Assembly: GCF_024347575.1 (NCBI RefSeq)
Contig: NZ_AP025503.1
Span: 1,674,001-1,738,000, forward strand
Reading direction: 5' to 3'
Length of the DNA: 64,000 nucleotides
Origin: Vibrio pelagius
GTDB lineage: Bacteria; Pseudomonadota; Gammaproteobacteria; Enterobacterales; Vibrionaceae
Shown here: piece by piece, positions 31,982 through 55,750 of the stretch
How positions within the stretch are numbered: the stretch's first letter is position 1
How the letters are laid out: every line of letters starts with the position of its first letter
Made by a program: the position numbers and the translations under genes
The notes under the pieces: model-generated
Told to the model about the DNA's origin: nothing
Seen by the model: the letters and a program-made list of their open reading frames with translations, nothing else
Databases searched by the model: none

Positions 31982-32221
31982 TTACTAAAACGTTCACACC
32001 AACCCGACGATTTATCATCCAATTTACGAGCCGTGAACTTTATGAACTTTATTAATTCAATGCTCTTTATCCTCAATATCACCACATTAAAGACAATTCA
32101 TTAACACAACATTAACCTTTGAGCATCGACTGGTTATTTGAACTTCGCTCAATACCCAGTAGTTAATACATCAATAAGTTTCTCGCTTAACTAAGAGAAC
32201 AATACATAAGGAACGTGAAAC

Positions 32222-33193: not shown

Positions 33194-33385
33194 TCACAAT
33201 ATTCAGGAGGGAATTACCAGCTCCCTCCTTCCTTATTCTCTGTTTTGCCATGCATGAGTTCACTCAATCTCCTTTGTAATTTGTGGGCAGTTGAGCACTA
33301 CTCTCTTCCTACATTCCGTTAGTGATCCCAGACATTTTTCATTAACCCGCTCATGCATGGCTTTTTTATTTTTATGGAGTTGGAT

Positions 33386-33886
33386 ATGTCGGAACAATCG
33401 AACACGTTCTTATCCAAAGAGAACCTACTCACTCGCGATCGCATCGGTGCCCTCGTTTTCTTACTGGTTTGCTTGTGCTATGGCTACCAAACAACCCTTA
33501 TTCCTCTGTTTCCTGGGGATGAATACGAACCTTTTACAGCGCGAACACTCCCAACCCTACTCACCTTTGCGGGTATTGGGCTGGCGCTGATCTTACTCGT
33601 AACCGGAAAACAAGAACCGAAGAATTCCTGCGATACCACACCGCTTAACTGGAAGCTGTTGATCGGTTTCTTGGTTCTAATGGCACTGTATGGTGTTGGG
33701 CTTACCTATCTCGGCTTTGTTTTAGCAACCGGCTTCTTCTTGTTGGCAGGTTTTTATCTACTGGGTGAACGCAGAAAGCCAATCCTGATTGGTGCTTCAT
33801 TTCCGTTCGTCATCGTTTTTTATCTTCTATTAACTCAGGGATTGGATATCTATCTAGAACCTGGTCTTATCTACACTCTTTGGTAG
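33386..33886 (+). CDS. tctB: TTT transporter small membrane subunit TctB
   Basis: The 166-aa protein has about four transmembrane helices (RIGALVFLLVCLCYG; TLLTFAGIGLALILLV; LLIGFLVLMALYGVG; PFVIVFYLLLTQG), the usual TctB layout. Start chosen at 33386, where GGAG lies 6 nt upstream; an in-frame upstream ATG at 33353 lacks this. It lies 10 bp upstream of tctA. Confidence 0.88.
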   Translation: MSEQSNTFLSKENLLTRDRIGALVFLLVCLCYGYQTTLIPLFPGDEYEPFTARTLPTLLTFAGIGLALILLVTGKQEPKNSCDTTPLNWKLLIGFLVLMALYGVGLTYLGFVLATGFFLLAGFYLLGERRKPILIGASFPFVIVFYLLLTQGLDIYLEPGLIYTLW

Positions 33887-33896
33887 GAACCGCATT

Positions 33897-35417
33897 ATGT
33901 TAGATGGAATTTTACAAGGACTTTCGACCGCGGTAATGCCGATGAACATCATGATGGTGATCGTGGGCTGCTTCGTTGGTACTTTTATCGGGATGCTACC
34001 GGGCTTAGGGCCTATTTCTGCGATCGCGCTAATGATCCCAATTACTTACGGTTTAGAACCTTCTTCAGGTCTAATCCTAATGGCAGGTGTTTATTATGGT
34101 GCGGTATTTGGCGGCTCCACTTCTTCGATTCTCATTAATGCTCCGGGATGTTCATCAACCGTAGTGACTGCATTTGATGGCTACCCAATGGCCCAAAAAG
34201 GTCAAGCGGGTAAAGCACTTGCGTTAGCGGCTTACTCTTCATTTACTGGAGGCACGTTATCAGCGATCATGCTCCTTATCGCAGCGCCGGCGCTTGCAAG
34301 CGTATCGCTAAGTTTCCAATCGTCAGATTACTTTGCACTGATGTTACTTGGCCTATCGGCCGTCGCAGCTTTCGCTGGCCCAGGACAAGTGATCAAAGCG
34401 TGGATGATGACCGTTCTAGGTTTGATGCTTTCAACGGTAGGTATCGATAAAGGTGTCGGTGTTGAACGATTCACTTTCGGCTTAACCGATTTGATGGACG
34501 GCTTTAGCTTCTTACTGCTCGCGATGGCAACATTCGCGCTGGGTGAAACCCTGATGGGTGTGCTTAAACCTCAAAAAGACACCAGCGAAGAAGAAAGCCG
34601 TAAGATGTCTGATATCGGCAGCATGAAAGTGACTAAAGAAGAAGTGAAAGACGTCGCCCCTGTATCGATTCGCTCGTCTATTCTTGGTTTCTTTACAGGC
34701 GTACTACCGGGTGCTGGTGCAACTATCGCAGCCTTCCTAAGCTATGGTATGGAACGTAGTCTCGCGCCAAAAGAGAAGCAGAAAGAGTTTGGTAAAGGCA
34801 GTATTCGCGGTCTTGTTGCACCAGAATCAGCAAACAACGCAGCTTCTAGTGGTTCGTTTGTTCCTCTATTAACACTTGGTATCCCAGGTTCAGGTACGAC
34901 GGCGATTATGCTTGGTGCTTTGATTGCCTACGGTATTCAACCAGGTCCGCGTCTGTTCGTTGAGCACCCAGATGTATTCTGGTCAGTTATTATCTCTATG
35001 TACTTCGGTAACATTGTACTGGTGATTTTAAATCTACCGCTGATCCCATATATCTCGAAACTGCTTGCCGTACCAAGAACCGTTTTACTACCTATGATTC
35101 TGTTCTTCTCAATTACTGGCGTTTACTTGGTGTCATTTAACACTATGGATGTCTTTATCATGTTGCTTATAGCAATGGCTGCCATAGGATTGAGATTAGC
35201 TGACTTCCCACTGGCACCACTGCTGTTAGGTTTCATCTTAGGCGGGTTGATGGAAGAGAACTTAAGACGTGCACTTATGATTAGTGATGGCGAATTGAGT
35301 TTCCTTTGGGAGCGCCCAATTACTATGAGCTTTACCATCCTTGCAGTGTTGGTTCTATTCAGCCCTCTATTCATGAAGCTGTTTAAGAGCCTTAAAGCCA
35401 AACCTGTAGAAGCTTAA
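33897..35417 (+). CDS. tctA: TTT transporter large permease TctA
   Basis: The 506-aa polytopic permease of the TctA family carries the conserved glycine-rich signatures GTFIGMLPGLGPISAIALM near residue 28 and GFFTGVLPGAGATIAAFLSY near 265, plus YGAVFGGSTSSILINAPG. It moves the carboxylate bound by TctC, driven by an ion gradient. The length is typical. A terminator lies 19 bp after the stop. Confidence 0.95.
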   Translation: MLDGILQGLSTAVMPMNIMMVIVGCFVGTFIGMLPGLGPISAIALMIPITYGLEPSSGLILMAGVYYGAVFGGSTSSILINAPGCSSTVVTAFDGYPMAQKGQAGKALALAAYSSFTGGTLSAIMLLIAAPALASVSLSFQSSDYFALMLLGLSAVAAFAGPGQVIKAWMMTVLGLMLSTVGIDKGVGVERFTFGLTDLMDGFSFLLLAMATFALGETLMGVLKPQKDTSEEESRKMSDIGSMKVTKEEVKDVAPVSIRSSILGFFTGVLPGAGATIAAFLSYGMERSLAPKEKQKEFGKGSIRGLVAPESANNAASSGSFVPLLTLGIPGSGTTAIMLGALIAYGIQPGPRLFVEHPDVFWSVIISMYFGNIVLVILNLPLIPYISKLLAVPRTVLLPMILFFSITGVYLVSFNTMDVFIMLLIAMAAIGLRLADFPLAPLLLGFILGGLMEENLRRALMISDGELSFLWERPITMSFTILAVLVLFSPLFMKLFKSLKAKPVEA

Positions 35418-35435
35418 TCAAATCTTACTTTATCT

Positions 35436-35457
35436 AGGGAGCCTTCGGCTCCCTTTT
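35436..35457 (+). terminator. Terminator of the tct operon
   Basis: Stem AGGGAGCC / GGCTCCCT with a 3-nt loop, followed by TTTT, 18 bp after tctA. Confidence 0.88.
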
Positions 35458-35581
35458 CTATTAATGGAGCAAGCATCCGTTGCAACAAATCACAAACTTA
35501 CCCATAACATCTTGATAAAGCTGGTTTTAGATTCAAAATTCAGTAAGTTAGTTATTCATCTCTCAATTAGGAACTATCGTC

Positions 35582-36340
35582 ATGGAATGGCTGATACTTT
35601 TTCTCGCTGGTGTGCTTGGTGGCATATTGAACTCCATTGCAGGTGGCGGCAGTTTTGTTACGTTCCCTGCTTTACTTTTTGTGGGCGTACCTCCGGTCGC
35701 TGCCAACGCAACCAATACCTTTGCTTCTTGTGCCGGTTACATAAGTGGGGCTTATGCATTAAAACAAGAGATTCTATCGGGCACAAAACAGCTTAAGTTG
35801 ACTTTGATTCTGAGTGTCTTGGGCGGTGCCATCGGTGCTTTCTTACTGCTACATACACCTGAGGCACTCTTTACCCAATCTGTTCCTTGGCTACTGCTAT
35901 TCGCAGCACTACTGTTTACCTTTGGCGGCCACATCAACAGCTTCATTAAAAAAGCGGCAAAAAAGCACAAACACGCAGGGAAAGCAGGCGCCTTCTTCTC
36001 TGCCCTATTGCTGCTTTTGGTATGTGTTTACGGCGGTTACTTCAATGCTGGTCTTGGTATTGTCACGCTAAGCTATCTTGCCTTAGCTGGTTATACCAAC
36101 ATCAATGTCATGAATGGGATTAAATTGTTGGTCTCAGCAAGCGCTTCAATGGCGGCCATTGTCTTGTTTATTGTTGATGGTTCAATTGATTGGAGTTCAG
36201 GACTTGTAGTCTTACTCGGTACACTGGTTGGTGGCTACTACTCTGCTCAGATATCACGCAACATTCCACAAAACTATGTTCGTAATAGCGTTATCGTTGC
36301 CAGTTTCTTGATCACCGCATACTTTTTCTACGCCAATTAA
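35582..36340 (+). CDS. TSUP (TauE/SafE) family membrane transporter
   Basis: The 252-aa protein has about eight membrane helices and the N-terminal family signature GVLGGILNSIAGGGSFVTFP with NATNTFASCAGY; the second half repeats it as GGYFNAGLGIVTLSYLAL. The family exports sulfite, sulfoacetate or other small organic acids, and the substrate is unknown here. TAGGAAC precedes the ATG. It follows the tct terminator, so it is probably expressed from its own promoter. Confidence 0.88.
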   Translation: MEWLILFLAGVLGGILNSIAGGGSFVTFPALLFVGVPPVAANATNTFASCAGYISGAYALKQEILSGTKQLKLTLILSVLGGAIGAFLLLHTPEALFTQSVPWLLLFAALLFTFGGHINSFIKKAAKKHKHAGKAGAFFSALLLLLVCVYGGYFNAGLGIVTLSYLALAGYTNINVMNGIKLLVSASASMAAIVLFIVDGSIDWSSGLVVLLGTLVGGYYSAQISRNIPQNYVRNSVIVASFLITAYFFYAN

Positions 36341-36543
36341 CCGGTTATTAAAAACCGCCAGATATGTCCTTTGCCTATAGGAGTTCGTTTTACTTTTGAG
36401 CGTTATACCAATCATGAAAATAGCATTCGCTGAATTTGTGAAGAGAATCTGATAATCACCTTGTTTGATATTAATTTAGATTAATTTTTATCCAGAGGTG
36501 CGATACTGACTGCGTAAAAGAAGCAAGCATATTAGGGGGCATT

Positions 36544-36735
36544 ATGAACATCAAACTCGGTCATGTTATGTCATCAAGCAGACTGATCTGCTTCATTGCA
36601 TTCTTAGCAGCAACCTTTGCGTGGATACTAAAAATGCCCGCTCTTTTTTCGGTTTCTGCTCTGTTTCTCGTCTTCAGCGCTGCAATCTACTTAAGTGATT
36701 TTATTAAGAATCAAAAGAAAAACCGCGAAGCCTGA
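36544..36735 (+). CDS. Small two-helix membrane protein, unknown function
   Basis: The 63-aa product has two predicted transmembrane helices (LICFIAFLAATFAWI; LFSVSALFLVFSAAIYL) and a basic C-terminal tail (KNQKKNREA). A strong AGGGGG Shine-Dalgarno before the ATG and a terminator downstream support real expression. I do not recognise the family. Confidence 0.65.
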   Translation: MNIKLGHVMSSSRLICFIAFLAATFAWILKMPALFSVSALFLVFSAAIYLSDFIKNQKKNREA

Positions 36736-36801
36736 GCAATCTCATTTCAACGCCACTGTTATGAGTCAACCTTATTTAGGACAGTTCAGTAGATAGTAAA
36801 G

Positions 36802-36827
36802 AAAAAGGAGCATGATGCTCCTTTTTT
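36802..36827. terminator. Bidirectional terminator
   Basis: AAAAAGGAGCAT and ATGCTCCTTTTTT form an almost loopless palindrome with A and T tracts on both sides, between the small membrane protein gene and the convergent VF530 gene. Confidence 0.85.
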
Positions 36828-36853
36828 GTATCTTGTTCAGTCCACCATAGCGA

Positions 36854-37270
36854 TTAACGGCGGAAATTACGTCCTTTACCACCAGAACGACGCGCTTTAA
36901 ATGAAGACGCGGCCTTAGCTTGAGATGCTAAGATAGACTCTACCGTCAGCTCCATCGGTTCTTTAGGCTCAAGCCCATGACGGAAAGTACGCGAACGCGG
37001 TGGCATTTGATACTCAAGATCAGACGCTTTAGGCATACGTTTGAAGCGGTACAAGTAAAAGTTCTCTACTTTCTCACGCGCCCACTGTGTTTTCTTTAAG
37101 TACTTCACCGCACTCGCAACAGACGGCTTCGTGTTAAAACAGTTCATGCGCATTGCTGCATCAAGTATTTCCCAACCGTAATGATCGACCAGCTCAGTGA
37201 TCATGGTTTCTAACTTTAAGCCATGCAGTGGGTTGTTTTTCTGCAGCTCAATTCTTTCTTCATCTGTCAT
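36854..37270 (-). CDS. VF530 family DNA-binding protein (DUF2132)
   Basis: The 138-aa protein has an N-terminal VF530/DUF2132 domain (about residues 11-75): NPLHGLKLETMITELVDHYGW, MNCFNTKPSVASAVKYLKKT, QWAREKVE. The basic C-terminal tail (FKARRSGGKGRNFRR) could contact nucleic acid. The family was named from a Vibrio fischeri structure; its role is unclear. The start follows AAGGT. Confidence 0.85.
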   Translation of the reverse strand: MTDEERIELQKNNPLHGLKLETMITELVDHYGWEILDAAMRMNCFNTKPSVASAVKYLKKTQWAREKVENFYLYRFKRMPKASDLEYQMPPRSRTFRHGLEPKEPMELTVESILASQAKAASSFKARRSGGKGRNFRR

Positions 37271-37840
37271 CGTCGTACCTTAAACAGAGCAAGTACTCTG
37301 CGTTAGTTCACCATCATCATAACGGTTGTTTACTTAGGTCAGCTTCCTGCATGCCTGTTACTGAAGGTAATGATGGCACAAAGCCTGTCACTCTCCTAAT
37401 TATCATCGATGGATATGTTTATTTATGGTCTGATCGCGTGAGAACTAACCGACACATCACTCAATAAGTCCGTTTTCTAATCCAAACATCCAACAATTCT
37501 GACTTCAGTACGTGGTTAGAACACATCTATTTCCGATACTGTCCACCCAACCTATTAATAATCATCGCATTTATTGAGCGTACTTTATGGAACCAACGTC
37601 GCTGTAAATACCCCTAATGGATTGGAAATCTAGATCGACATAACAAAAAAGCGAACCCAGTTAACAAAATAGATGATGCTCAAATGTAATAACCACATTT
37701 TTAGTGATGTATTTAGAATTTATAAGATGATGAGATTACAATTCATTAACAGGACTGGTATGTTCATATTCTTAAATATGAGAAATCAATAAGTCAAAGA
37801 AAAACAATTATATAATTATAAATAAAGGTCAGCCCCGCTC
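37271..37840. other. 570-bp intergenic region
   Basis: Divergent spacer between VF530 and the HD-GYP-like gene. The right half is very AT-rich and includes a short inverted repeat CATAT-tcttaa-ATATG near 37768, as expected of a promoter region. I see no gene, tRNA or known RNA. Confidence 0.5.
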
Positions 37841-38989
37841 ATGTTTGACTACTCCCAACTCAGTAAAATCGCAGCTAAAGATCAAGATATTACCTCCACA
37901 TTAGACGATCTTTTCCAGCTTGTGCGTTCGTTCTACCCGACGCTCTCGCGCCTTTCTATAGCTTTAACCAATGAAAACAAAGCTACCAATTACTTTGTTT
38001 CCGATGCCTTGTGCCAAGAAGCGAATGATAACTACATCGAATACAACATCAGACCAGAATCTTCCCTGAGAAAGATGTCTGAACTGCCTTCAATACGAGT
38101 TATCAATGACTTATCGACAATGAACCCCACACGACAAATTTGTCGCTTAATCGATATTGGACATCAAAGTAGCTACACCTCCCCAATCTACTATCGCGAC
38201 CAAAACCTTGGTTTTATCTTTATTAATGCCACCGCGATCGGTTTCTTCAATCAGAAAAGCATTCAAGCGGACATCGCGTACCTATCTCAACTTATCGCGA
38301 ACCTGTTTACTCGACTGCATGAGAGTCAAAAACACTTTCAAACTTCTCTCGCAATCGCCCTCAATATGGGCCATGCAAGAGATCCTGAAACCAAGGAGCA
38401 TTTGATTCGCATGGGACGTTACAGCGAAATACTGGCGCGCGCTATGTCAGAGCAAAAACCGGAAATCACCTATCAGTTCATTCATCGAATCCGTGTTTAT
38501 GCGCCTTTTCATGATATCGGTAAGTATCGTATCCCCGATCATGTACTTTTTAGTACCAAACGATTTACCGATGAAGACAGAGCCATAATGAATCAGCACA
38601 CGATTTTCGGTGAGGCTATGATTGACGATGTCGTCTCAATTTCAGATAACCACTCAATCTCACATGATGAAATACAGTTTCTGAAAAACATTATTCGACA
38701 TCACCACGAACGCTACGACGGAACGGGCTTACCTGACAGGCTATGTGGGACTCAGATTCCTCTAGAAGCGCGTATCGTTACTCTGGCAGATGTATTTGAT
38801 GCCTTGCTCAGCAAAAGAGCCTATAAATCGGAATGGGAACTTGATGATGTATTGGAGTACATCGAAGAAAACGTTGGCATAATGTTCGATCCAAACTGTG
38901 TTGATGCCCTTAAACAGAATCTCGATACCTGTATGGCAGTAAGGGAGCAGTTTTCGGACAAAGAAGAAGTCACTAGCTTTCAAGCATAG
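37841..38989 (+). CDS. GAF-like/HD-GYP-type phosphodiesterase
   Basis: The 382-aa cytosolic protein has an N-terminal GAF-like sensory region (about 15-165) and a C-terminal HD domain of the HD-GYP class (about 170-360). It keeps the metal-binding HDIGK near residue 225, QHTIFGE and HHHERYDGTG near 288. The eponymous GYP reads GLP (DGTGLPD). It probably hydrolyses c-di-GMP, opposing cyclases such as the TPR-GGDEF protein encoded at 16009-18081. Monocistronic; AAAGGT upstream of the ATG is a modest ribosome site. Confidence 0.87.
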   Translation: MFDYSQLSKIAAKDQDITSTLDDLFQLVRSFYPTLSRLSIALTNENKATNYFVSDALCQEANDNYIEYNIRPESSLRKMSELPSIRVINDLSTMNPTRQICRLIDIGHQSSYTSPIYYRDQNLGFIFINATAIGFFNQKSIQADIAYLSQLIANLFTRLHESQKHFQTSLAIALNMGHARDPETKEHLIRMGRYSEILARAMSEQKPEITYQFIHRIRVYAPFHDIGKYRIPDHVLFSTKRFTDEDRAIMNQHTIFGEAMIDDVVSISDNHSISHDEIQFLKNIIRHHHERYDGTGLPDRLCGTQIPLEARIVTLADVFDALLSKRAYKSEWELDDVLEYIEENVGIMFDPNCVDALKQNLDTCMAVREQFSDKEEVTSFQA

Positions 38990-39175
38990 TTTTCCACCCA
39001 GTAGACACTAAGAAGTCGCACTGGAAAGCGACTCTTGTCGATATGGCGTTTCGATAGCAACGATTCTCGAATCCAAAGCTGTTATCGGGCGCTTTATCCA
39101 GTTAAGAATCGTCATTATCTATTTAAGCTGTTATCGCTAATGGAAGCGAGGTAACTTCCCATACTCCAAAAACAA

Positions 39176-39202
39176 CAAAGCCCCGCATAATGCGAGGCTT
39201 TG
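39176..39202 (-). terminator. Terminator after tRNA-Val
   Basis: CAAAGCCcCGCAT / ATGCGaGGCTTTG hairpin. Read on the minus strand it follows the tRNA 3' end by about 10 bp and is followed by a T-rich tract. Confidence 0.85.
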
Positions 39203-39212
39203 TTTTGATATA

Positions 39213-39289
39213 TGGTGGATCCGGGCGAACTCGAATCGCCGACCCCCGCCATGTCAAGGCGGTACTCTAACCAACTGAGCTACGGATCC
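39213..39289 (-). tRNA. tRNA-Val (anticodon GAC)
   Basis: A complete 77-nt cloverleaf on the minus strand: acceptor GGATCCG/CGGATCC, D arm with AGCTCAGTTGGTTAGAG, anticodon stem CCGCC/GGCGG with loop TTGACAT (anticodon GAC), T arm GGCGA/TTCGAGT/TCGCC and encoded CCA. It closely resembles E. coli valV/valW tRNAs. It is the intact partner of the truncated copy next to it. Confidence 0.97.
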
Positions 39290-39325
39290 AAAATGTTCTA
39301 CGTTGCATTGTAATGCAGTAAGGGA

Positions 39326-39371
39326 TGGTGGGTCCGGGCGAACTCGAATCGCCGACCCCTACCATGTCAAG
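39326..39371 (-). pseudogene. 3' half of a second tRNA-Val, presumed integration junction
   Basis: These 46 bp match the intact tRNA-Val from the anticodon loop (CTTGACATGG) through the T arm and CCA end with few changes, then similarity stops abruptly at the anticodon stem. The 5' half (acceptor, D arm) is missing. Two tandem tRNA-Val genes, the upstream one split by an element that recombined at the anticodon loop, would explain this. It lies immediately to the left of the recombinase operon. Confidence 0.9.
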
Positions 39372-39577
39372 ACACCTAATTAATGGTTATAGAAAATATA
39401 AGTCACTGCAAACACTATAAATCAACACTTTAGCTTGAAAATGACCTCTACCTGTAATAGGTTAATATCTAACCAGCTGATATATGGGCACAACATGGTC
39501 ACATATTTCAAAGTTCCTATATCGGACATATTCTGACCTGCTTTTTTTCAATAAAGCAATTTGAGTGGACGTGTAGT
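39372..39577. other. Junction-proximal region before recombinase operon
   Basis: AT-rich 206 bp between the tRNA fragment and the recombinase operon. It holds an inverted repeat GGTTA-atatc-TAACC at 39460-39474. It is a plausible site for arm-type recombinase binding and for the operon promoter; neither is proven. Confidence 0.4.
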
Positions 39578-40144
39578 ATGGACATGCAAGAGAAGTTTCA
39601 CCGTGATTTATTTAAGCAAACAACATGGCAAGAGGTCAGCGTCAAGCAGCTTGTTACTGACGAAATTCTTGCTAGCTTCTACGAAAAAGCCAATCCAATT
39701 TCTTTGCTTCGCAATCAACCAAACCATCAGCATCATCCGACATATTTATTCAACTTACTCGCACTACAATCACCCATAATTTGCTACTCATTTCGTCGGC
39801 ACTATCGCTACCTTGCAGGCTCGTTCACTATCGAAAAACTGCGTGATGCCATCGCCAAAAATGAACTCCCTGCCGATAAAGAAATACCTGTTTTTGTTCT
39901 CCATAAAAAACCAAATAGCGAGCTACGAAAGCAAATTATTCAGTTCGATTTAACCAATAATCTCATCGATAAATGCTTCATCAGTGACACGAAAAAAATC
40001 AGTATTTTGTTACGAAATTGGTTTCAAAAAGACGAAGGTAAGCGGAGCATTTTTCAGTCGCAGGAATGGCTAAATCTCTATCCCAATTTGAATACTGCAG
40101 AGAAAACCGCAGCGTATTTATCTATATCCAAAAAAGACCTATGA
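39578..40144 (+). CDS. 188-aa protein, first gene of recombinase operon
   Basis: I do not firmly recognise this protein. The central part (FRRHYRYLAGSFTIEKL followed by EIPVFVLHKKP) is faintly like ParB/Srx-type nuclease-fold proteins, and the overall charge is mildly basic, but no catalytic motif is certain. It ends 8 bp before the 830-aa recombinase-like gene, which in turn overlaps the 1059-aa recombinase, so it is probably an accessory factor of the same recombination system. The ribosome site is weak. The first gene of some other multi-recombinase elements is likewise small and poorly characterised. Confidence 0.6.
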   Translation: MDMQEKFHRDLFKQTTWQEVSVKQLVTDEILASFYEKANPISLLRNQPNHQHHPTYLFNLLALQSPIICYSFRRHYRYLAGSFTIEKLRDAIAKNELPADKEIPVFVLHKKPNSELRKQIIQFDLTNNLIDKCFISDTKKISILLRNWFQKDEGKRSIFQSQEWLNLYPNLNTAEKTAAYLSISKKDL

Positions 40145-40152
40145 GGTGACCA

Positions 40153-42645
40153 ATGGATGAGTTAACCGAAGGCAAAATTGCACAACTTTTTCCAAGGGCG
40201 CCTATAGAAATCGTAAGGTTATGGCTGCCGGTTTTGGAAGCCATAGAATGCCCTTCCAATTTTCGCTCTCTTCGGTTTGTCATTCACACTCTCGATATCA
40301 GTGCTCAACTTGAACCTCAGCTCTTTAGCCAAACATTCGGTGTTCCCTACGACTTAATTGACGCGTTGTTCTCCATTACCTCCGAGCCCAACACAAAACA
40401 ATTTGAAGAATACTCCAACACAACGCTAGCGCATGGGTCGAAAGGCGATAAGCCCATCTACTCACTATTATTTGAGTTTCATCGAATCATCGATGCTCAA
40501 CTTGCCGAAACTTTGCTCGTTTTTCTCGACCACTACGCGCACCATGAAGCAGAAATTACTTCGCGAAATAAAGCCGAGCCCACATTGAGTTCGCTCCGCC
40601 TCCTGTATCCAGATCAGAAATTCACCCCATCTTATCTTGCAGGTCGAAACCCTAACGAAATTGCAAATCAACTTCTGCATTTTAAGAATGAACTGTTATC
40701 CGGTGATAGACATGAAGAAAACTGGAACAAGAACATGCGTGGGCGTATTTGGAACCTCATTCATTTTTACCAAGTCAATTGGTCTGACCGACATAAGCGG
40801 TCCAGAAAGTCCAAGCAAGCACTCCGAGGCTCCTATCGTCGCAATAAGCCTGAGAGACTAATTGGAAGTGATCATTTAACTACCTACTCGTTAAAAAAAC
40901 TCTCATTTTCCGAAGAGTATCTGAACAACGGCGTCTCACCGTTTGAAGACCTCCCTCCTCTCTCAGTTGTCAATAACGAGATACTTGATACGCCTAGGCC
41001 TGCCCATGAAATACCGGATATATCAGTAATAAGGGACGGTCAGAAAAACAAAGACAAAAATCGAAGCATTAACAAGTCGGTTACGCAGTCTCACAACATC
41101 ACCGTATTATCACGAAATGTCTTACAACCGCATGAACTCAACTACCTTCTTAACGAGCTGGTCTCTTCTAGAGCTGGTAATATCGACGGTATAGATAAAA
41201 ATAAGTTGCGTTGTATTGCACTAATCTGTCTATTGTTTTCTCGAGAGCTCGAAGACGTACTAAACCTTCAGGTATCAACGAAGGGTGCCGCACCAAAAAC
41301 CGGCTTTCACCTTCGCTCCCTGAAAACTGGGGCATTTAATACCTCATTCAAGTCAACAACACTTCGCACTGAACACAGTGAAAGCCCCAACCTGCGTAAA
41401 GCCCGATCTCTGCTAGCCGTTTCGCTTCCTCCTGAACTAGTACAAAGACTTAAATCAGCGGTCCTACAAGACGGCACTATTCGAGACAATTCAGGCACGA
41501 AAGAAAAAGTGTTAAAGGCACTACAAAAACTCATTGAAACACTTAACCGAAAACATCACTGCCAAATCAGCTTGAAGCGCATTGAAAATCATCTTAAGAA
41601 CTATGTAATTGCCACCGAGCGGTTTGACCCAGTCTTATTAGAGCCACTGATCGGCAAAGAGATCTATTACACTCGCTCCCCGCGTCACTACGCGTGGTAC
41701 GACCACGTAGAATTGAATCAGTTTGTTCAGCAGCTTTGGCAACAAGCATTTCCGACATTGCCATTCCAATACCAAGCTGAGTTCGTGTCTACAGATGTGA
41801 GCGATGACGATATCACCGGCTTTGGGTCAGAATTTACACCTAAACTAGCAGTGCTAAAGCAATTAGCCTCAACCCTTAGACTAGAACTTAGCAAGTGGAA
41901 GTCCTTCGATGCGTCTAGCTCACTCAATAGCATCATTGACTACCACAACGCCTACACCTTACATACCATCTATATGCTTCTGTGTGGGACTGGTTACCGA
42001 GCTGTATCTAATCCTTTACCCAGCTTTAGCTTTGCACTGATGCGCTACAACGCTATTTGTATTTCAGACAAAGACAGCGCGCTCACCTTCTCTCATATGC
42101 GCGTTATCGCCTGTCCGGCAACATTAAAAGCCCAGCTTAAACATTATCAACACCACCTAGACGCAGTCGCACGTTTGCTCTCGCACAATCGCACTTATGA
42201 TTCGAATCAACTCCGCTGGCACCGCTCAGCCTTGCGTTTTATCGAAATGACTTCAAAAAATGCGAGGTTAGACTGGCACTTTTCAGCCAAAAACTCTCAG
42301 AAGAATGACGGGCTCTTCTTGTTTTTTGAACACAATGAGAATGGAGAGCTAAAGTCCGTCAATGCTTATCCCACGACAATACGCCGACAGTCTAGTCAAT
42401 TACCCCAACTTCCACTGAATTTTGGGCGTCATTATCTTCGACGATATCTGCAGATAAATGATGTACCCCAAGAGCTTATAAAGCTTCAAATGGGCCACTG
42501 GGTCACAGGTGAAAACCCGCTTGAAGGTTTCTCTTCGCTTTGCATGACTGAGGCCATTAATGACCTACTTCCCAAACTTGATAAGATGATGAATGAGATT
42601 GGCTGGGAGTCTATACCATCGGCATTGACAAGGAAGCGCCAATGA
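40153..42645 (+). CDS. Large tyrosine-recombinase-fold protein, nucleophile apparently missing
   Basis: The 830-aa protein has a C-terminal tyrosine-recombinase catalytic fold (about 560-815): Arg 616 (CGTGYRAV), His 760 and Arg 763 (GRHYLRR), and His 782 (MGHW). In the related 1059-aa partner the nucleophilic Tyr lies nine residues after this His; here that position is Glu 791, and the nearest aromatic is Phe 793. The roughly 550-residue N-terminal part is not recognised. It overlaps the next gene by 4 bp (ATGA), implying coupled translation. It may be a structural or target-recognition subunit working with the active partner, as inferred for recombinase-fold proteins in other multi-integrase elements. 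The missing Tyr is read directly; the role is inference. Confidence 0.8.
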   Translation: MDELTEGKIAQLFPRAPIEIVRLWLPVLEAIECPSNFRSLRFVIHTLDISAQLEPQLFSQTFGVPYDLIDALFSITSEPNTKQFEEYSNTTLAHGSKGDKPIYSLLFEFHRIIDAQLAETLLVFLDHYAHHEAEITSRNKAEPTLSSLRLLYPDQKFTPSYLAGRNPNEIANQLLHFKNELLSGDRHEENWNKNMRGRIWNLIHFYQVNWSDRHKRSRKSKQALRGSYRRNKPERLIGSDHLTTYSLKKLSFSEEYLNNGVSPFEDLPPLSVVNNEILDTPRPAHEIPDISVIRDGQKNKDKNRSINKSVTQSHNITVLSRNVLQPHELNYLLNELVSSRAGNIDGIDKNKLRCIALICLLFSRELEDVLNLQVSTKGAAPKTGFHLRSLKTGAFNTSFKSTTLRTEHSESPNLRKARSLLAVSLPPELVQRLKSAVLQDGTIRDNSGTKEKVLKALQKLIETLNRKHHCQISLKRIENHLKNYVIATERFDPVLLEPLIGKEIYYTRSPRHYAWYDHVELNQFVQQLWQQAFPTLPFQYQAEFVSTDVSDDDITGFGSEFTPKLAVLKQLASTLRLELSKWKSFDASSSLNSIIDYHNAYTLHTIYMLLCGTGYRAVSNPLPSFSFALMRYNAICISDKDSALTFSHMRVIACPATLKAQLKHYQHHLDAVARLLSHNRTYDSNQLRWHRSALRFIEMTSKNARLDWHFSAKNSQKNDGLFLFFEHNENGELKSVNAYPTTIRRQSSQLPQLPLNFGRHYLRRYLQINDVPQELIKLQMGHWVTGENPLEGFSSLCMTEAINDLLPKLDKMMNEIGWESIPSALTRKRQ

Positions 42646-45600
42646 CAACATCTCGCACAGCAAAATTACGAATGGACGGAATGAAAGCCGAGTTCAAAGC
42701 TCAAGCTTTGCAAGAGTTCAACCATTATGTCGAACGACACCCACTGACAAAAGACAGTGAAGCAGAAAGAATCAAGATAATCGACAAAGTGTATAACCAC
42801 ACCGTCTCACTAGCTCGGCACAAAGACAACTGCATAACGCAAGAATCCCTAGCTAGCATTCAGAAGAAACTACCCAATGAAGAACCCTATTTATCCCTAT
42901 TTCATTCGGTTCTCAATCTTCTGATTTTCTACATAGAACGCAAAACAGGCATACGCGCGCCGGAACTGGCGATGACCACGACGCTCAAGCAAGAGGTACC
43001 TGTATTAACACCCGACACCTTTCTGAATTCAGAGCTTGCCGCGTCAATCTATGACCTCATCGAGTCCAAAAGTGCACTGAAAGCCTATATCAGTGAACCC
43101 ACGCGAAACTCAGGGTTCCTTATTCTGTGGCTGATACTCAAAGAGGGTATAAGCAAAGAAAAAGATATTTTACCCATACTACGCAGTCATGAACCGCTAT
43201 ATCGTATTGAAAGTCATTGTTTTTACAAGACGACTAAAGCACGTCGATTCTTGCTATCTAAAAAAGCGGAATTTTTACTCCAGGTTTGGTATCAATCAGA
43301 CTACCCCGCCTCTCATAACGCTACAAAAATAGTTCAAAAGTACTTGGTGGCTCACCACCTACTCTCTGCTCACCACTCTCTGGGTATCGTTTCGCTACGA
43401 CAGATGCTCAAACTCGAGTATGTGATGACACGAAGCAACATCGAGTTTAAGCTCTACAATCAGCGCCTCCCCAATTCGTTATTGAGTGACCATACCCTTG
43501 CCCGCTTATTCACCGGTCGCCGGATACATCATTCCCAAGAAGATACCACCGAATTAAAAACGACTGTGCGTCAGCAAAGACATTGGTTATCTGGCTTCAG
43601 TGCTGGAGAAGGTAAGATTCGAAAACGAGTCGATCAAGACATTGCCCAGCTGACAGCAAAAGAGCAAATCGACATAGTGTCCTATTTTACTGGCAAGTTA
43701 GCTAGCGCCTCGCCAAAAGATGCCAGTAAGGTATCGACTAAGGTACTCGCCACTCTACAAATACGGTTAGAAGACAAACATAAAATCCGCGCCATGCCAT
43801 TTTGTTGGCTTGTGCTTTCATGGTTGTATCACTTGCTTAAAAATGGCGGAAAATTTAAATCCACACTGAGGCTAAACACCATCAAGGATTACGTTTCAGC
43901 CGTGTCTTCGTCCTTTATTTCTGAGTTCTATGGCTGCGATCCGGAAAAGATGAACGAAATCGATTGGGCAGAAAAGTTCAATATTGTCATTGAGTCTATC
44001 GCCTCACCACAGCGTAAAGCGTATGTTGCCTATTTTGCAGAGTTTCTGATTGACAGTAATTTGGTACCCAACCTATGTTTATCCGACATCGATGTGCCAG
44101 CTTCGGAACACAATGTCGACGCGAATATTATTTCCCATTTTGAAGCAGACAACATCATCTCAGCACTGGAAAAGTCCAAGCATCGGAGAGCTGAGCTTGC
44201 CCAAACGTTATTTGTCTTTGGTTTCTTCCTCGGATTGCGCCGGAATGAAATCAAAGGGTTACAGTTCAAAGATTTTCACCACGAAAGCAATGAACACCAT
44301 ACCTTGCATATCCGGCCCAACAAATATCGACTGCTCAAGACCACCGATGGTTCTAGAAACTTGCCAGTCGAAAGTCTCCTTCCTGCGGCACACCTAGAGA
44401 AACTGCTTAGTTTAGTTGAAAGATCAAAATTAAAGCACATGTCGTTTGATAACCTGATTTTCCATCACTACACAGATAAAGACTTAAACGATGCGTTTAA
44501 ACTCCTTACGGATGTTATGAGGGGTGTGACCGGTGATGAGACTCTGCGCTTTCACCATTGCCGCCACTCCTTTGCGAATTGGGTCCTGTGCCTACTTTAT
44601 AATTTGAAGCAAACGCACTCTTGGCCGTTTCTTGAACACAATTATTTTTCTTCGGAGCGAGCTGAACAACTTCGTTGCCGGCTCCAGATAAGACAAAATA
44701 CTCGTAAACAGTTTTGGGCAGTGGCACAACTATTAGGGCATGCAAGCCCCGGCGCGACGACGTCGTCTTACTTTCATCTCTCTGATATATTTCATCGCAC
44801 ATACTATGCCAGCTACTTGACTGAGCTCTACGCGATACGTCAATTCTGGGGACAAGGCACCGTTCTAGACAGTGATGGCAATATTAAACTAAAGCCAAAC
44901 CAACAGAGCGTTGCTAAGCGATACCAACCAGAAGTTAAGTTGCTCTCAGCGCCTCAATCACCATTTGATAGCAGCGAATTCGACCCACCAAAAGTTGACC
45001 ATGTTAAAGTTGACCATGTTAACAAAGAATTATCGCTAGAAGTCATTTGGCGAGTTATTCGCAGGAATGCAGAAGGCCAAAGTACACGCACCATTTCTAA
45101 TGAAATGAACATCTCCGTTGAATTGGTCAAGCATATCCTGCAAACAGATAAGGAACTAACGCTTCGAACTCAACGTCGGTCGAAGCATAATGCGAAGCCG
45201 TACGTTAACTACCATTCAATGCTGAAGCCAAACACAATAGAAACCTCGAAATGGGTCACGGCCTTCGATAGCAAACGAGATGAACTCAGCTCCACGCTTA
45301 AGTTAGATTTACTTTTGCAGGGGATTAACGCCTTGGTTGGCTCAAAAGACGCGAAAGTTAGAACTTCGGATAAAGACTTTGCGCTTACACTCATCAAGCT
45401 CGTTGAGACTCTTTCTGTTCCCAGTCAAATCGTCGAGATAAAGTGGTATATGGAAAACGCTCCTCTCGCTGATTTAAGTCAAATCGAAGTTTACTTCCCA
45501 CATATAGCCTTTTGGTTACGTGTGTTAGAAGACAAGATAGGGCTCGATAAAAGCTGCTTTTCTATTATCCTTCCCAAGCAACTAAGCACGTTTAAAGCTG

Positions 45601-45821
45601 ATTTCGAAAAATACGCCAAAACTATCATCAGCGAAGACAGTAAGTACTTTAACTACATAGCACCTGGGCACGTGACCATAGAGGTGAAGCAAACTCACTT
45701 TTATTCTGACCGACGGAAAGAAGCAGAGGCTCTACCAAGCCGTCCGAGACGGAGGAAGTCCTTTGTGAGCTTTTTGAGGTTAGTAGCGATTTATTTGGAA
45801 CTCAACAGAAAAACCGATTGA
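42642..45821 (+). CDS. Large tyrosine recombinase with C-terminal helix-turn-helix extension
   Basis: The 1059-aa protein carries a complete tyrosine-recombinase active site: Arg 533 (LGLRRNEIKGL), Lys in the KYRLLKT strand, His 638 and Arg 641 (HHCRHSF), His 700 (LGHASPG) and Tyr 709 (SSYFH). A core-binding-like region precedes it and more than 500 residues of unknown N-terminal sequence lie before that. After the catalytic domain a linker (PPKVDHVKVDHVNKE) leads to a helix-turn-helix (VIWRVIRRNAEGQSTRTISN, about 801-835) and a further 200-residue region. It is probably the catalytic integrase/excisionase of the island inserted at tRNA-Val. It is much longer than phage integrases (about 350-450 aa). 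Overlaps the previous gene by 4 bp. Confidence 0.87.
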   Translation: MTTSRTAKLRMDGMKAEFKAQALQEFNHYVERHPLTKDSEAERIKIIDKVYNHTVSLARHKDNCITQESLASIQKKLPNEEPYLSLFHSVLNLLIFYIERKTGIRAPELAMTTTLKQEVPVLTPDTFLNSELAASIYDLIESKSALKAYISEPTRNSGFLILWLILKEGISKEKDILPILRSHEPLYRIESHCFYKTTKARRFLLSKKAEFLLQVWYQSDYPASHNATKIVQKYLVAHHLLSAHHSLGIVSLRQMLKLEYVMTRSNIEFKLYNQRLPNSLLSDHTLARLFTGRRIHHSQEDTTELKTTVRQQRHWLSGFSAGEGKIRKRVDQDIAQLTAKEQIDIVSYFTGKLASASPKDASKVSTKVLATLQIRLEDKHKIRAMPFCWLVLSWLYHLLKNGGKFKSTLRLNTIKDYVSAVSSSFISEFYGCDPEKMNEIDWAEKFNIVIESIASPQRKAYVAYFAEFLIDSNLVPNLCLSDIDVPASEHNVDANIISHFEADNIISALEKSKHRRAELAQTLFVFGFFLGLRRNEIKGLQFKDFHHESNEHHTLHIRPNKYRLLKTTDGSRNLPVESLLPAAHLEKLLSLVERSKLKHMSFDNLIFHHYTDKDLNDAFKLLTDVMRGVTGDETLRFHHCRHSFANWVLCLLYNLKQTHSWPFLEHNYFSSERAEQLRCRLQIRQNTRKQFWAVAQLLGHASPGATTSSYFHLSDIFHRTYYASYLTELYAIRQFWGQGTVLDSDGNIKLKPNQQSVAKRYQPEVKLLSAPQSPFDSSEFDPPKVDHVKVDHVNKELSLEVIWRVIRRNAEGQSTRTISNEMNISVELVKHILQTDKELTLRTQRRSKHNAKPYVNYHSMLKPNTIETSKWVTAFDSKRDELSSTLKLDLLLQGINALVGSKDAKVRTSDKDFALTLIKLVETLSVPSQIVEIKWYMENAPLADLSQIEVYFPHIAFWLRVLEDKIGLDKSCFSIILPKQLSTFKADFEKYAKTIISEDSKYFNYIAPGHVTIEVKQTHFYSDRRKEAEALPSRPRRRKSFVSFLRLVAIYLELNRKTD
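44991..45020 (+). repeat. 15-bp tandem duplication in recombinase linker
   Basis: AAAGTTGACCATGTT occurs twice in tandem, giving KVDHV-KVDHV in the linker after the catalytic domain. A simple slippage duplication. Confidence 0.85.
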
Positions 45822-46037: not shown

Positions 46038-49000
46038 TCAGTCTGAAGATAGAGCAAAACCACCTGCCGCCAACCGCTTTTTTCGAGGTGTCTGCTGATG
46101 ACTATCCACCGGTAGTGCAGGCTCGGCAAATAATGCCTCTAAGCTTGGGTAGCACTTCATGCCATCAACCTGCAACTCACCTGACATGACTCCGCTCTCC
46201 CAGTCCTTCTGGTTACCCAAAACAAACAGGTGATGCTTGGCACGAGTGACGGCAACATTGATAAGATTTGGTTTACTATTCACCCATTGTACACCACCCA
46301 TGTTCTTGCGCACCGAAGACGCAGCCGTACAGATAATTACGGTAGAGGCTTCTTTACCTTGAAAGGTATGCACAGTACCGATATTCTCAAAGGCAAACGC
46401 TTTAAGATCATCGTCTGCACGCCCCATAGCTGCCTTCATCCAATCATGCTGTGCGGGGTCCTTGACCATCCTGTTCCACGTGGTTTGCAATGTCTTACGC
46501 ATCTTGGAGAACGGAGTAATGATGTATACGCCACCCTCTACCATCTCAGGTTGGGTCTGGCACAAATGCTTGGTCAGTGCTAAAGCCGCTTCAGCTTCGG
46601 TGCCATTGTAATAACTGCCACCTCGAGTTTGTCCTTCAGGCTCAGTAATGTTAACCCAACCACTTTGCACTGCCTGCCACTTATAAGGCATTGATGCTAA
46701 AACCATCTTATTATCGTAAGCGATACGGTTGGCAATACCAAACATCGGTTCAGTACAACGACGGTGCACCAGTAATGGAATGCCTACCGTTCTATCACCA
46801 ATCCTCGAGAAATAGTTACCGCTTTTGTCGGCAATTGACTGAGCTGAAGAAGCGCTCACTAGGTAATCATCGCCCCAGCCTTTTTGGCCATCCTGCTGTC
46901 CGAGCAACACAAAATCATCCGCCAAATTTCGGTCAACATTCGGCGGCATAGTGACAACGGGTTCGAGCTGGATCGGGTCCCCGACAAAAATCGCTTGCTT
47001 ACAGCGTTGTAAAAGCCCAGCAACATGGTAGTTAACCGCCTGCCCAGATTCATCAAACATCACCAAACCAAAGCCTTGTGGCTTTTGCATCAGCTTAAAT
47101 TGCGCCTCAGCAGACGCCAGTGATGAGCTGACAACAGGGAAGAATAAGAACAGCAACGCCCAAGTGCGCTGATGGTAAGGCACTTTTTCATTGGTCTCCA
47201 GTCGACCATCAACCAGAAATTGTAGGTCTTTCCAATCTTGCTCAGTAATAGCCTCGGCACCCAGTTCAATAATTGCCTCGTTTAATACCAAGGAGCGAAT
47301 AAATAGCTCAGTACGAAGATGGTTGACCCCTTTGCTGCCCAGCGGCGATTGTTGCTGGATCCGTGCCTCTGCCGTTTTGGCATCCTCACCAGCATTCGCC
47401 TGATAGCTGAAACTAAACGGAGAATACTGCGGCTGATCAAGCTCCCATTTTCGACAGTGCTCAGCGGCATTACTACCCGTGATGTCGCGACGGAAGGTCT
47501 CCCAGCGAGCAAGAGCATCTTCATAGGCTGATTTGGCATTCTTATAGCGATCCTTTCGACGCTGACTTGCCATCTTCATGCCAAACCACTGCCGACGGAC
47601 GCGATCAAGGGCATCAATCGCAGCATCCCAATACTCAGTCTCGTAACCACACCAAGCCTCCGCCAACGCATCAACCGTTAGTTCACCTTCATCAATCTTG
47701 AGGAGCGATTGACAGAGTGCCTCAAGGAAATCTTTATACTGCGCATTCTTAAAGGCATGCGTAGCCTGAATGTCCTCAACCACCTGCTGCAACTGACCGC
47801 TACGGTGCCAGCGGTCAACAAAGCGGTCGATCACCGGCTGTGCCTCACCCTGCTCAGCTTTTTTCAATGAGTTAACAAAATAGCGCAACTGAAAGTGGTC
47901 ACCTAAGCCCTTGAGGTGCTGGCTTAATTTTTTAACCGTGTCCTTAAAGTCTTTACGATTACTGCTATTGCCCAATACCGCACAGAATATGCCCCAGTCA
48001 CCTTTTGGAGCAATGGACTTAAAATAGTGGGTATGCTCCTGGTAGTCACCCGCCAACTTGGCTAACGATGGAAGTTCTTTGGAGATATTTTCTACCGCCT
48101 TGTTGTTGCTCGAAGCAACCAGCATGCTGTGATCAAGCACGGCATTACACAATGACGCATCAAGCCACGACTTGGCTTTGTCAGGATCAAAGGCTTTATC
48201 AAGGTCTCGTGTTCGGCTTACAAATCGCTCAGCAATCACGTCTTTTAATAAGGTGGTCTTTCCGGTGCCGGGTGGACCATTGACCGCAACAACTGGATTG
48301 TCTTTACGCTGTAGGGCCACATTCACCGCCACGGTTTGTAACAAACTCAAGCCGTAAGCCGGATTCTCAGGCCAACGCCCCCGAATCAAACGATTAGTGA
48401 GCGGAAAGTACTGCTCTGCGGCATCCAGTGCTGGGGTCAGCTCTTGCTGATTTTTAGCCCCCAAAAGATACGCACTGAGCGGCGCCGACAGCCCCTCAGC
48501 TCCCTCTAAATCTAGGGTTTGAATGATATGTTCAAGATCCTGCACAAAGAAAGGGCCAAGCTGGCTGTTATCATTACCCTCTGGATAGTAGCAGTGACGC
48601 CAACGGAAAGTCATCGCGCCACTGGGATGGCGATGAGGGCGGTCGGTATCGTCCTCAGCAAACTGGCTATCAATCGGCTTACAACGTTGCTCCATGTAAT
48701 CGCGTGAAGCGGCATCTGGCCAAAACTCGCTTGCCAAGTCTCGGTTGATCTTGACGATCTGCTGTTGCAGCTCACGGGTGGTGAGTGCTGGTTTTCCATC
48801 CTCAGGGCTCAGGCTGTGGGCAAGGCGATTGGTAATCGTCTCATACCGCGACTCTACCCACTGTGAAAGTGACATATTTTTCGGTACAGATGAAGAACAC
48901 TTACGGTAAAGCGTCCGAATGGTTGCCATGTTGATGGACACGTCCTGATCTTCTTCCGAACGTGTCCAGCGGATGGTCCCGGTGCTTTGATCCCAACTCG

Positions 49001-49385
49001 GGATCATCGCTTGAGCGACAAGAAAGGTACGCGGCACCTGATAGTTAGGATGCTCTTCGCCCGGCTCAATCAGATATCCGGCTAGATGACACTGGAACAT
49101 AATCAACAAGCGGCTTTTGTCATCAAATTCAAGCTCACCCGTTAGACAACGTTGATTGGCACTATCGCCCCAATCTTCAATAAACGACTCCGCCTCTTTA
49201 CTTGCAATCCCTTTTTCTCTATCCATCGGACACTCGGGTAAATCAAAAAGCTCAGCATCCAGCCAATAGTTCATGATCCGTTTACAACGCTCGGTGTCCG
49301 TCACTACATTCAGCGTGGTGATGTTATGACTATGTTCATCACGCAACTGCAAACGGCTTTTTAACTTATCGAAGATTCGACTCAT
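46038..49385 (-). CDS. UPF1/DNA2-like superfamily 1 helicase
   Basis: The 1115-aa cytosolic protein carries Walker A GPPGTGKTTLL near residue 370, motif II FDESGQ near 775, motif III GDPIQLEPV, motif V TFQGKEASTVII and motif VI NVAVTRAKHHLFVLGN near 1042, characteristic of SF1B helicases. About 390 residues, largely helical in appearance, separate motifs I and II, and about 365 residues precede motif I; I recognise no nuclease motif in them. The start at 49385 (MSRIFDKL) is preferred over a GTG at 49475 without a ribosome site. Standing alone next to a recombinase operon, it is likely cargo and may be a defence or DNA-repair gene; this is inference. Confidence 0.85.
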   Translation of the reverse strand: MSRIFDKLKSRLQLRDEHSHNITTLNVVTDTERCKRIMNYWLDAELFDLPECPMDREKGIASKEAESFIEDWGDSANQRCLTGELEFDDKSRLLIMFQCHLAGYLIEPGEEHPNYQVPRTFLVAQAMIPSWDQSTGTIRWTRSEEDQDVSINMATIRTLYRKCSSSVPKNMSLSQWVESRYETITNRLAHSLSPEDGKPALTTRELQQQIVKINRDLASEFWPDAASRDYMEQRCKPIDSQFAEDDTDRPHRHPSGAMTFRWRHCYYPEGNDNSQLGPFFVQDLEHIIQTLDLEGAEGLSAPLSAYLLGAKNQQELTPALDAAEQYFPLTNRLIRGRWPENPAYGLSLLQTVAVNVALQRKDNPVVAVNGPPGTGKTTLLKDVIAERFVSRTRDLDKAFDPDKAKSWLDASLCNAVLDHSMLVASSNNKAVENISKELPSLAKLAGDYQEHTHYFKSIAPKGDWGIFCAVLGNSSNRKDFKDTVKKLSQHLKGLGDHFQLRYFVNSLKKAEQGEAQPVIDRFVDRWHRSGQLQQVVEDIQATHAFKNAQYKDFLEALCQSLLKIDEGELTVDALAEAWCGYETEYWDAAIDALDRVRRQWFGMKMASQRRKDRYKNAKSAYEDALARWETFRRDITGSNAAEHCRKWELDQPQYSPFSFSYQANAGEDAKTAEARIQQQSPLGSKGVNHLRTELFIRSLVLNEAIIELGAEAITEQDWKDLQFLVDGRLETNEKVPYHQRTWALLFLFFPVVSSSLASAEAQFKLMQKPQGFGLVMFDESGQAVNYHVAGLLQRCKQAIFVGDPIQLEPVVTMPPNVDRNLADDFVLLGQQDGQKGWGDDYLVSASSAQSIADKSGNYFSRIGDRTVGIPLLVHRRCTEPMFGIANRIAYDNKMVLASMPYKWQAVQSGWVNITEPEGQTRGGSYYNGTEAEAALALTKHLCQTQPEMVEGGVYIITPFSKMRKTLQTTWNRMVKDPAQHDWMKAAMGRADDDLKAFAFENIGTVHTFQGKEASTVIICTAASSVRKNMGGVQWVNSKPNLINVAVTRAKHHLFVLGNQKDWESGVMSGELQVDGMKCYPSLEALFAEPALPVDSHQQTPRKKRLAAGGFALSSD

Positions 49386-49920
49386 ATCTTTCTCATTACT
49401 AATGCATATAGAGTATGCATTTTTCCATTTATTCTCTAGCAAACGGGGAGGAGCTTGCCCGATTATTAATCTCACTATAATTTATAAAATAGCAATTTGA
49501 ACATACCCGCAATTTCACTATCCCAGAGTGTTTCAGCACCGTTAGCCTTACTAGCCCATCATTACAGGTAGCGTTCATCAAGAACCAACTCTGCTCAAAA
49601 TAGCGCTTTCGGAGCGGTATAATCGACACCTTGACCAAAATCAGCGTGATGACTGATAAGCCCAAAATCCATAAAATCAGGACATAGCCTGTTCGATAAT
49701 ATACATCATTAAAACTATCCTGACACCCTTTCAGTGTCAGGATATTAAGAGCTAACTGATTATTAAATAATGAAATTTAGATAGAAAAGGCCCCATTTAT
49801 AATTAAATAATCGTCGTTAATCAAACCAATAGATAATCACCCACTAGGCACTCATCGAAAAATTGAATCATAGTCGTCGCCAACGTAACAGCACCCAGAC
49901 AACTCTGGACGCTTTGAGGA
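49386..49920. other. 535-bp region between helicase and integrase module
   Basis: Promoter region of the helicase on its left. A short TTG-initiated minus-strand frame at 49429-49665 is not convincing. The right half is AT-rich with one strong hairpin (listed separately). No clear gene is seen. Confidence 0.4.
49717..49743. repeat. Perfect 10-bp hairpin
   Basis: ATCCTGACAC-cctttca-GTGTCAGGAT. It lies beyond the end of the xis-int-orf104 operon (minus strand) and may act in termination, although no T run follows. Confidence 0.55.
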
Positions 49921-50235
49921 TTAGTGATGATTTCGAGGATGTTCGGTCTGATTAAAGCTGAACTGAAGCTTTTCTATAACTTCATCTGGTTCATACTTGA
50001 ATTTTTTACTTCGGCAAAAAATGAGAATCTGCATCATCGAGTTCACCAATTGCCGAATATACAAACAGTCCGTCGAGCGATTCATTCGAAGTAAGTGATA
50101 CCTAACTCTCTTGGTGCAAGGCTCACGCAGGTCAAACAGCTCGTCTAGCGTAAGGTTAAAGAACCCTTTTTGATGAATAATCGATAAGCACACGCTGGCG
50201 CAGTGCACGGTTAACACATCCACTTTCATTGTCAT
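49921..50235 (-). CDS. 104-aa protein coupled to integrase, unknown function
   Basis: The start codon overlaps the integrase stop (ATGA), and GGAGGT lies upstream within the integrase gene, so expression looks real. The protein begins MTMKVDVLTVHC and has a basic centre with several cysteines; no domain is recognised. Being co-translated with an integrase, it may be a recombination or maintenance factor of the module. Confidence 0.6.
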   Translation of the reverse strand: MTMKVDVLTVHCASVCLSIIHQKGFFNLTLDELFDLREPCTKRVRYHLLRMNRSTDCLYIRQLVNSMMQILIFCRSKKFKYEPDEVIEKLQFSFNQTEHPRNHH

Positions 50236-55648: not shown

Positions 55649-55750
55649 ATTGACCCCCTCCTCAAAGTTGTTGGTCAACATAGAGTCTGGCGATCAACTA
55701 GAACCGTTCCAGTCACGATAACATTCCATGAACATGAGCCGAAACATCCG

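Follow-up and report, generated by a model that had tools for sequence, protein, structure and literature searches.

A three-gene recombinase operon at one end of a tRNA-Val island in Vibrio pelagius, probably representing an undescribed family of anticodon-loop islands

The operon and the ends of the island

The DNA analyzed here (the window) is a 64,000-nucleotide stretch of the Vibrio pelagius genome (NCBI RefSeq assembly GCF_024347575.1, contig NZ_AP025503.1, positions 1,674,001 to 1,738,000 of the forward strand), and its subject is a three-gene operon located on the + strand at window positions 39578-45821. The genes encode a 188-amino-acid (aa) protein with a ParB-like predicted fold (small; 39578-40144), an 830-aa recombinase-fold partner (mid; 40153-42645) and a 1059-aa tyrosine recombinase (large; 42642-45821), together referred to as the trio. 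All three open reading frames (ORFs) are uninterrupted, small and mid are separated by 8 bp, and mid and large overlap by 4 bp (ATGA), which confirms the tightly spaced, coupled operon proposed in a preliminary description of the locus. Protein searches returned 8 proteins for mid (one of them distant) and 45 for large at E <= 0.001, the query itself counted in both cases, and 43 for small at E <= 0.1; because of these homologues, and because the gene order recurs in other genomes, the trio was not attributed to chance ORFs. The genes of the relatives are currently annotated as 'hypothetical protein' or plain 'integrase'. Below, G000 denotes the V. pelagius genome and C1 its chromosome sequence; other G and L numbers denote comparison genomes and loci.

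The operon is preceded by a 209-bp direct repeat on the - strand (39163-39371), composed of a terminator-like hairpin, an intact tRNA-Val(GAC) gene lying outside the island (V1; 39213-39289, - strand), a spacer and the 3' half of a second tRNA-Val(GAC) gene (V2). This half (39326-39371, - strand), designated attL, is cut after the anticodon loop at 39371, and the left island end (39372-39577, no strand) fills the interval to the operon. A right copy of the repeat, 95% identical to the left, was found on the same chromosome at C1:1773361-1773569 (approximately 99361-99569 on the window scale), and hairpin, V1 and a complete V2, to which the V2 half is identical at 46/46 positions, recur at C1:1773361-1773600. 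The two junctions are 60,198 bp apart; with the complete V2 60.2 kb further right, the 60.2-kb island has the trio at one of its ends. As expected of a tRNA-integrated island, a direct repeat of part of a tRNA gene bounds it, and the tRNA is complete at one of the boundaries. We infer that the crossover fell within the 7-nt anticodon loop (ATGTCAA). The preliminary description had placed the operon next to a tRNA attachment (att) site; a tRNA-Val locus does adjoin it, and the junction is the truncated second copy, not the intact tRNA-Val gene. At the right end the repeat extends beyond the 46-bp half to 209 bp (hairpin and V1), so that a whole extra tRNA gene is carried there; G206 likewise has extra tRNA-Val copies.

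Twelve other Vibrio genomes with a complete locus carry tRNA-Val(GAC) in tandem, in two copies (10 genomes) or three (2 genomes). V2 is uninterrupted in G139 and G009, and both share the right flank of G000, with stretches of 80-91% identity.

Relatives, tRNA targets and end repeats

The order small-mid-large was also found in V. halioticoli, V. albus, one Gammaproteobacteria metagenome-assembled genome and G206, while in V. anguillarum (L029) the contig begins inside mid. The presence of intact orthologous operons in other species does not bear out the objection that the operon is decayed. In far relatives, hhalign gave probabilities of 99.8 for mid and 99.7 for large, and the ORF before mid/large is mostly 97-213 aa, with longer ORFs in L180 (381 aa), L185 (507 aa) and L186 (282 aa) and no ORF of >=90 aa in L121. 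Mid lies directly upstream of large at 20/20 loci where large was matched at E<1e-40, and is present at 4 of 9 loci with weaker large matches (L182, L184, L185 and L193); these co-occurrence counts are not independent, because the mid and large models were partly built from the scanned loci and L180-L188 came from the mid search. L181, L187 and L188 contain mid without a large match, and mid is split into two ORFs in L187 and L189.

Within the class, the mid profile matched 13/369 genomes, G000 included, and in a genus search the large profile matched 29/227 genomes, in 5 of them over nearly the full length, in 2 partially but strongly and in 22 weakly. No relatives of large were found in a scan of viral contigs or in phage records, and plasmid records yielded one weak match. 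For Vibrio sp. SM6 the five proteins P0005, P0006, P0016, P0058 and P0059 comprise a single large one and two each of small and mid; the longest contig for all of them is 86,777 bases, and the strain probably carries two trios on one contig.

An Acinetobacter seifertii plasmid carries a trio of the wider family at 2009-8028 of L122, and tblastn with the large protein of a relative matched 231 Acinetobacter plasmid records, those listed covering approximately 35% of its length. Elsewhere in G000, L034 (G000:C1:218000-232000) contains a four-gene set of 209/527/987/409 aa (5789-12180, - strand), whose 987-aa protein is a distant relative of large (hhalign 96.9). In L194 and L195 the large-type gene is preceded by a gene of 525-526 aa.

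Truncated tRNA 3' halves were found upstream of 15/23 loci, derived from tRNA-Val, tRNA-Gly(TCC) or tRNA-Asp(GTC) and cut after the 7-nt anticodon loop in all three kinds. The types were read by eye from the anticodon loop, and ARAGORN bore out the Gly assignment at the far ends; L029, L181 and L186-L188 (cut or broken) and second copies from the same genomes were kept outside the 23. Upstream of control operons, comprising six of the gamma-mobile-trio (GMT) type and one SE-like, such halves were found in 0/7 (two of the six GMT-type operons were checked by NCBIfam, and three of the 7 had 0-300 bp of upstream sequence). Seven of the 8 tRNA-Gly loci could be followed to the far end (G259, on a 54-kb contig, could not), and in these ARAGORN placed a complete tRNA-Gly(TCC) in 7/7 far ends and in 0/7 near ends. 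The tRNA-Gly islands span 42-130 kb and the other tRNA-Val islands approximately 35, 44 and 95 kb. Collected neighborhoods and ends thus repeat one layout: just inside one island end lies the trio, adjoining the displaced 3' half of a split tRNA; the other end has a tRNA of the same type and strand in complete form, and tandem repeats are located within the far end and sometimes within the near end. Split tRNAs and relatives with this layout support the earlier proposal that this recombination operon belongs to a mobile element with a tRNA att site.

In the V. pelagius island the repeats are a tandem arm-like pair, GGGCACA-N4-GGTCACA (39486-39503, + strand), with a partner pair at the right end (G000:C1:1773202, approximately 99202 on the window scale). 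With the pattern defined as two GGnC(A/T)C(A/C) units at a distance of 10-12 bp, a far-end pair was found 136-268 bp before the tRNA T-arm in 11/11 islands, against a background of one such pair in 247,606 bp of other Vibrio DNA, both strands together. Near the far end of 6/7 tRNA-Gly islands (L200, L201 and L203-L206) there is also a conserved gene for a helix-turn-helix (HTH) protein of 70-73 aa, a candidate directionality factor or regulator.

The three proteins and a proposed mechanism

Tyrosine recombinases are characterized by the catalytic set R-K-H-R-H-Y, which large retains (R533, K566, H638/H639, R641, H700 and Y710), although it scored 24.6 bits against PF00589 Phage_integrase, below the 27.1 cut-off; a weak HTH-like stretch follows at approximately 794-864. 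PHROG matches within the trio were confined to large. NCBIfam gave weak matches far below cut-off for small and large and none for mid, Pfam gave no match at E<=1 for mid or small and nothing convincing for the small family, and sequence-only PDB searches with profiles of all three proteins returned nothing useful.

Mid has the recombinase catalytic fold, with no full catalytic set in any one domain, and appears to carry two recombinase-like catalytic domains. Domain 1 (approximately 318-537) is degenerate, being without HxxR and GH, and has Y513 in 14/14 aligned sequences. Domain 2 (approximately 550-830) contains R616, K640, H760, R763 and H782, with F793 at the Tyr position; R616, K640, H760 and H782 are kept in 14/14 sequences and R763 in 13/14. 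Position 793, next to an invariant Ser, is occupied in the 14 sequences by F (7), H (4) or Y (3). The preliminary description had called this partner nucleophile-less, which holds for the C-terminal domain and is too simple for the protein, because mid seems to have two domains of which the first has an invariant Tyr. Foldseek returned no significant match of the mid model in PDB; the recombinase match came from a second structure comparison in which domain 2 was barely covered. When the two domains were compared by hhalign, Y513 fell on F793 without gaps in a weak alignment (probability 5.6, E 0.007).

Small has a predicted ParB/sulfiredoxin fold. A GERR-type phosphate motif is a feature of the ParB family; small lacks it and carries at the expected place, assigned by eye, the invariant residues G81, F83 and T84 (G-x-F-T).

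Taken together, the conserved layout and catalytic residues make it very probable that the operon serves as integration/excision module for large islands of one family, which insert in the tRNA anticodon loop. In the mechanism that we propose, the circular island would carry an attP in which the island's copy of the tRNA 3' half is joined to the anticodon-loop core and a left arm. Cleavage and rejoining by large would occur at the 7-nt anticodon loop, between the inverted repeats of the anticodon stem, and the island would therefore replace the tRNA 3' half and leave a working tRNA. Mid would be a partner subunit, binding core DNA and keeping the complex together, with no cleavage on its own, and small, through its ParB fold, and/or the HTH of large would bind the arm repeats, bringing ends 35-130 kb apart together and setting direction. 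If so, the proteins that move a set of islands of 35-130 kb would be identified for Vibrio and for some other Gammaproteobacteria; the islands would have defined ends, the tRNA anticodon loop as their target and three genes by which they can be searched for. Site-specific recombination would gain a ParB-fold protein as well as a recombinase of two domains with a parted catalytic set, and clean attL/attR/attB sites would make it directly testable why Tyr-less recombinase-fold partners persist in several element families.

Several observations weigh against this proposal. Its basis is wholly sequence inference, and no excision, circle or transfer has been observed. The left backbone flank (window 32011-38988) sits elsewhere in G139 and G009, approximately 280-330 kb from the tRNA-Val locus, which places a rearrangement endpoint between 38989 and 39163 and leaves the left junction without synteny proof, so that synteny with an empty site supports the right junction only. 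No tRNA half was detected by the patterns used at 8/23 loci (plasmid loci L120 and L122 and six distant loci); since the patterns derive from the halves first observed, those of other tRNAs would be missed. Five distant small proteins showed no detectable similarity to small by hhalign, and mid is absent from 5/9 loci with weaker large matches (L034, L192, L194, L195 and L196). The repeat pattern was chosen after inspection of these same ends, its strict form occurs at the left end (att to operon) of only 4/12 islands, and it is also present at 3/9 other tRNA-Val loci and at 1/3 tRNA-Val loci bounding other islands. At G044, one of the three, a mid remnant lies approximately 28 kb away, and the repeat-bearing tRNA-Val loci may therefore be ends of decayed trio islands. 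Finally, the island contains a separate 406-aa integrase.

Among other explanations, the one that best survives, though we consider it doubtful, is that large works alone, mid being a recombinase-fold regulator and small a repressor of the operon. Against it stand the position of mid beside large at every strongly matched locus and the invariance of R616, K640, H760 and H782, residues that would be dispensable in a mere DNA-binding relic, as well as the repeats at the far end, 35-130 kb away. An elaboration of the proposed module, which we regard as speculative and unlikely, takes mid to be a tandem tyrosine recombinase whose active site is parted between its domains, domain 1 having kept the nucleophile and lost the pocket, and domain 2 having kept the pocket and mostly dropped the nucleophile. 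Domain 1 of one mid subunit might then cleave in trans into domain 2 of another; or mid might be silent and large alone cut, so that each site would undergo a single strand exchange and replication would have to deal with the remaining Holliday junction (copy-out). The ParB-fold protein would in this elaboration serve as a clamp pairing ends up to 130 kb apart via parS-like repeats.

Comparison with described elements and content of the island

The trio might be a divergent member of a described multi-recombinase family (GMT, SE or GInt). The general plan is shared: one operon, placed where a cargo island ends, encodes an active recombinase together with a small protein and a Tyr-poor recombinase-fold protein. 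GMT is the closest architectural parallel and was absent from those listed in the preliminary description; GMT islands, with GmtY-GmtZ-GmtX, were reportedly described by Mahata et al. 2024. According to NCBIfam entries and portions of citing papers and of PMC12039261, GMT combines a tyrosine recombinase with a large integrase-like protein and a small one of approximately 212 aa, on cargo islands in Vibrio, and the trio resembles it in each of these respects. The order differs (Y(496)-Z(862)-X(212) in L139, against small(188)-mid(830)-large(1059) here), and no split tRNA of the kinds searched lies upstream of the few GMT-type operons checked. No NCBIfam GmtX, GmtY or GmtZ match was obtained for the window trio at E<=1 or for the trios of four relatives at E<=0.1. 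Against GmtX/Y/Z (4-5 sequences each) hhalign probabilities were <=1.1, compared with 99.7-99.8 for mid and large of distant trios, and against an SE-like set of the same genome (single sequences) they were <=3.8; since hhalign misses the shared recombinase fold (1.1 for large against GmtY, both tyrosine recombinases, and 2.7 for the large catalytic core against three other recombinase groups), these tests exclude close kinship only. With gene order, gene number and sizes also differing from the described families, we consider membership in one of them very improbable.

The SE-like comparator was L035 (G000:C1:2360000-2374000), elsewhere in the same genome, where positions 3555-10013 encode proteins of 467/784/730/167 aa; the label derives from these sizes and from the 74% identity of the 784-aa protein to a V. 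alfacsensis plasmid protein. The remaining comparisons draw on portions of the published accounts (PMC10214605, PMC3414803, PMC8138268, PMC12715929 and PMC5385486). In the part of PMC10214605 available, SE have four genes with two active recombinases, occur in Gammaproteobacteria including Vibrio, and contain a Tfp said to be without the RHRY set. A recombinase-fold protein without catalytic residues beside active recombinases in one operon is thus a shared trait, while mid, unlike Tfp, keeps R-K-H-R-H, and no IntA-Tfp-IntB-Srap operon is present here. The GInt operon ginABCD, as outlined in part of PMC5385486, has four genes for three putative recombinases, GinC with an incomplete catalytic motif, and an HLH protein; the trio is likewise a multi-recombinase operon at one island end and was set apart by architecture and description only, having three genes and one full catalytic set. 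RIT, in the portion of PMC3414803 consulted, consist of three recombinases each with a possible catalytic motif, whereas here one full catalytic set is accompanied by one partner and one ParB-fold protein; adjacent recombinase genes are the feature common to RIT and Tn554-type elements, Tn554 being considered by description only. GMT, SE, GInt and RIT are similar in spirit to the trio and, as far as tests were possible, different from it.

Classical one-integrase tRNA islands share the crossover in the tRNA gene and the rebuilding of the tRNA at one end. Their integrase usually lies beside the rebuilt tRNA, whereas here a three-protein module lies at the end with the displaced half. As far as could be tested, the earlier claim of no match to a named family stands, profile searches with all three proteins (Pfam, NCBIfam and hhalign) having shown no clear homology of the whole trio to a described family. 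No title or abstract start describing the trio module was found in the literature, the search covering titles and abstract starts only and being no proof of absence from print. The trio probably marks an undescribed family of anticodon-loop islands.

The ordinary 406-aa integrase mentioned above (50232-51452, - strand) has a strong PHROG_1 match (E 1.3e-57) in the same island, but it lies approximately 11 kb inside, and the trio recurs beside split tRNAs of three kinds in other genomes, so the idea that this integrase or another element moved the island with the trio as passenger is hardly credible. With the small ORF behind it (49921-50235, - strand), the integrase may form a nested element. 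A 209-aa short tyrosine recombinase is encoded at 55052-55681 (- strand; PF00589, 60.7 bits, above cut-off). Two proteins are likely defense cargo of the island: a 1145-aa helicase-like protein (46038-49475, - strand; PADLOC match to Mokosh MkoC, E 3.9e-69), and the product of a 596-aa frame that extends past the window (62866-64656, - strand), of which a tested 335-aa piece matches AbiU (E 1.7e-26). Near the right island end, two adjacent proteins with PHROG radical-SAM matches are encoded at 12899-15404 of L104 (- strand; approximately 95.9-98.4 kb on the window scale).

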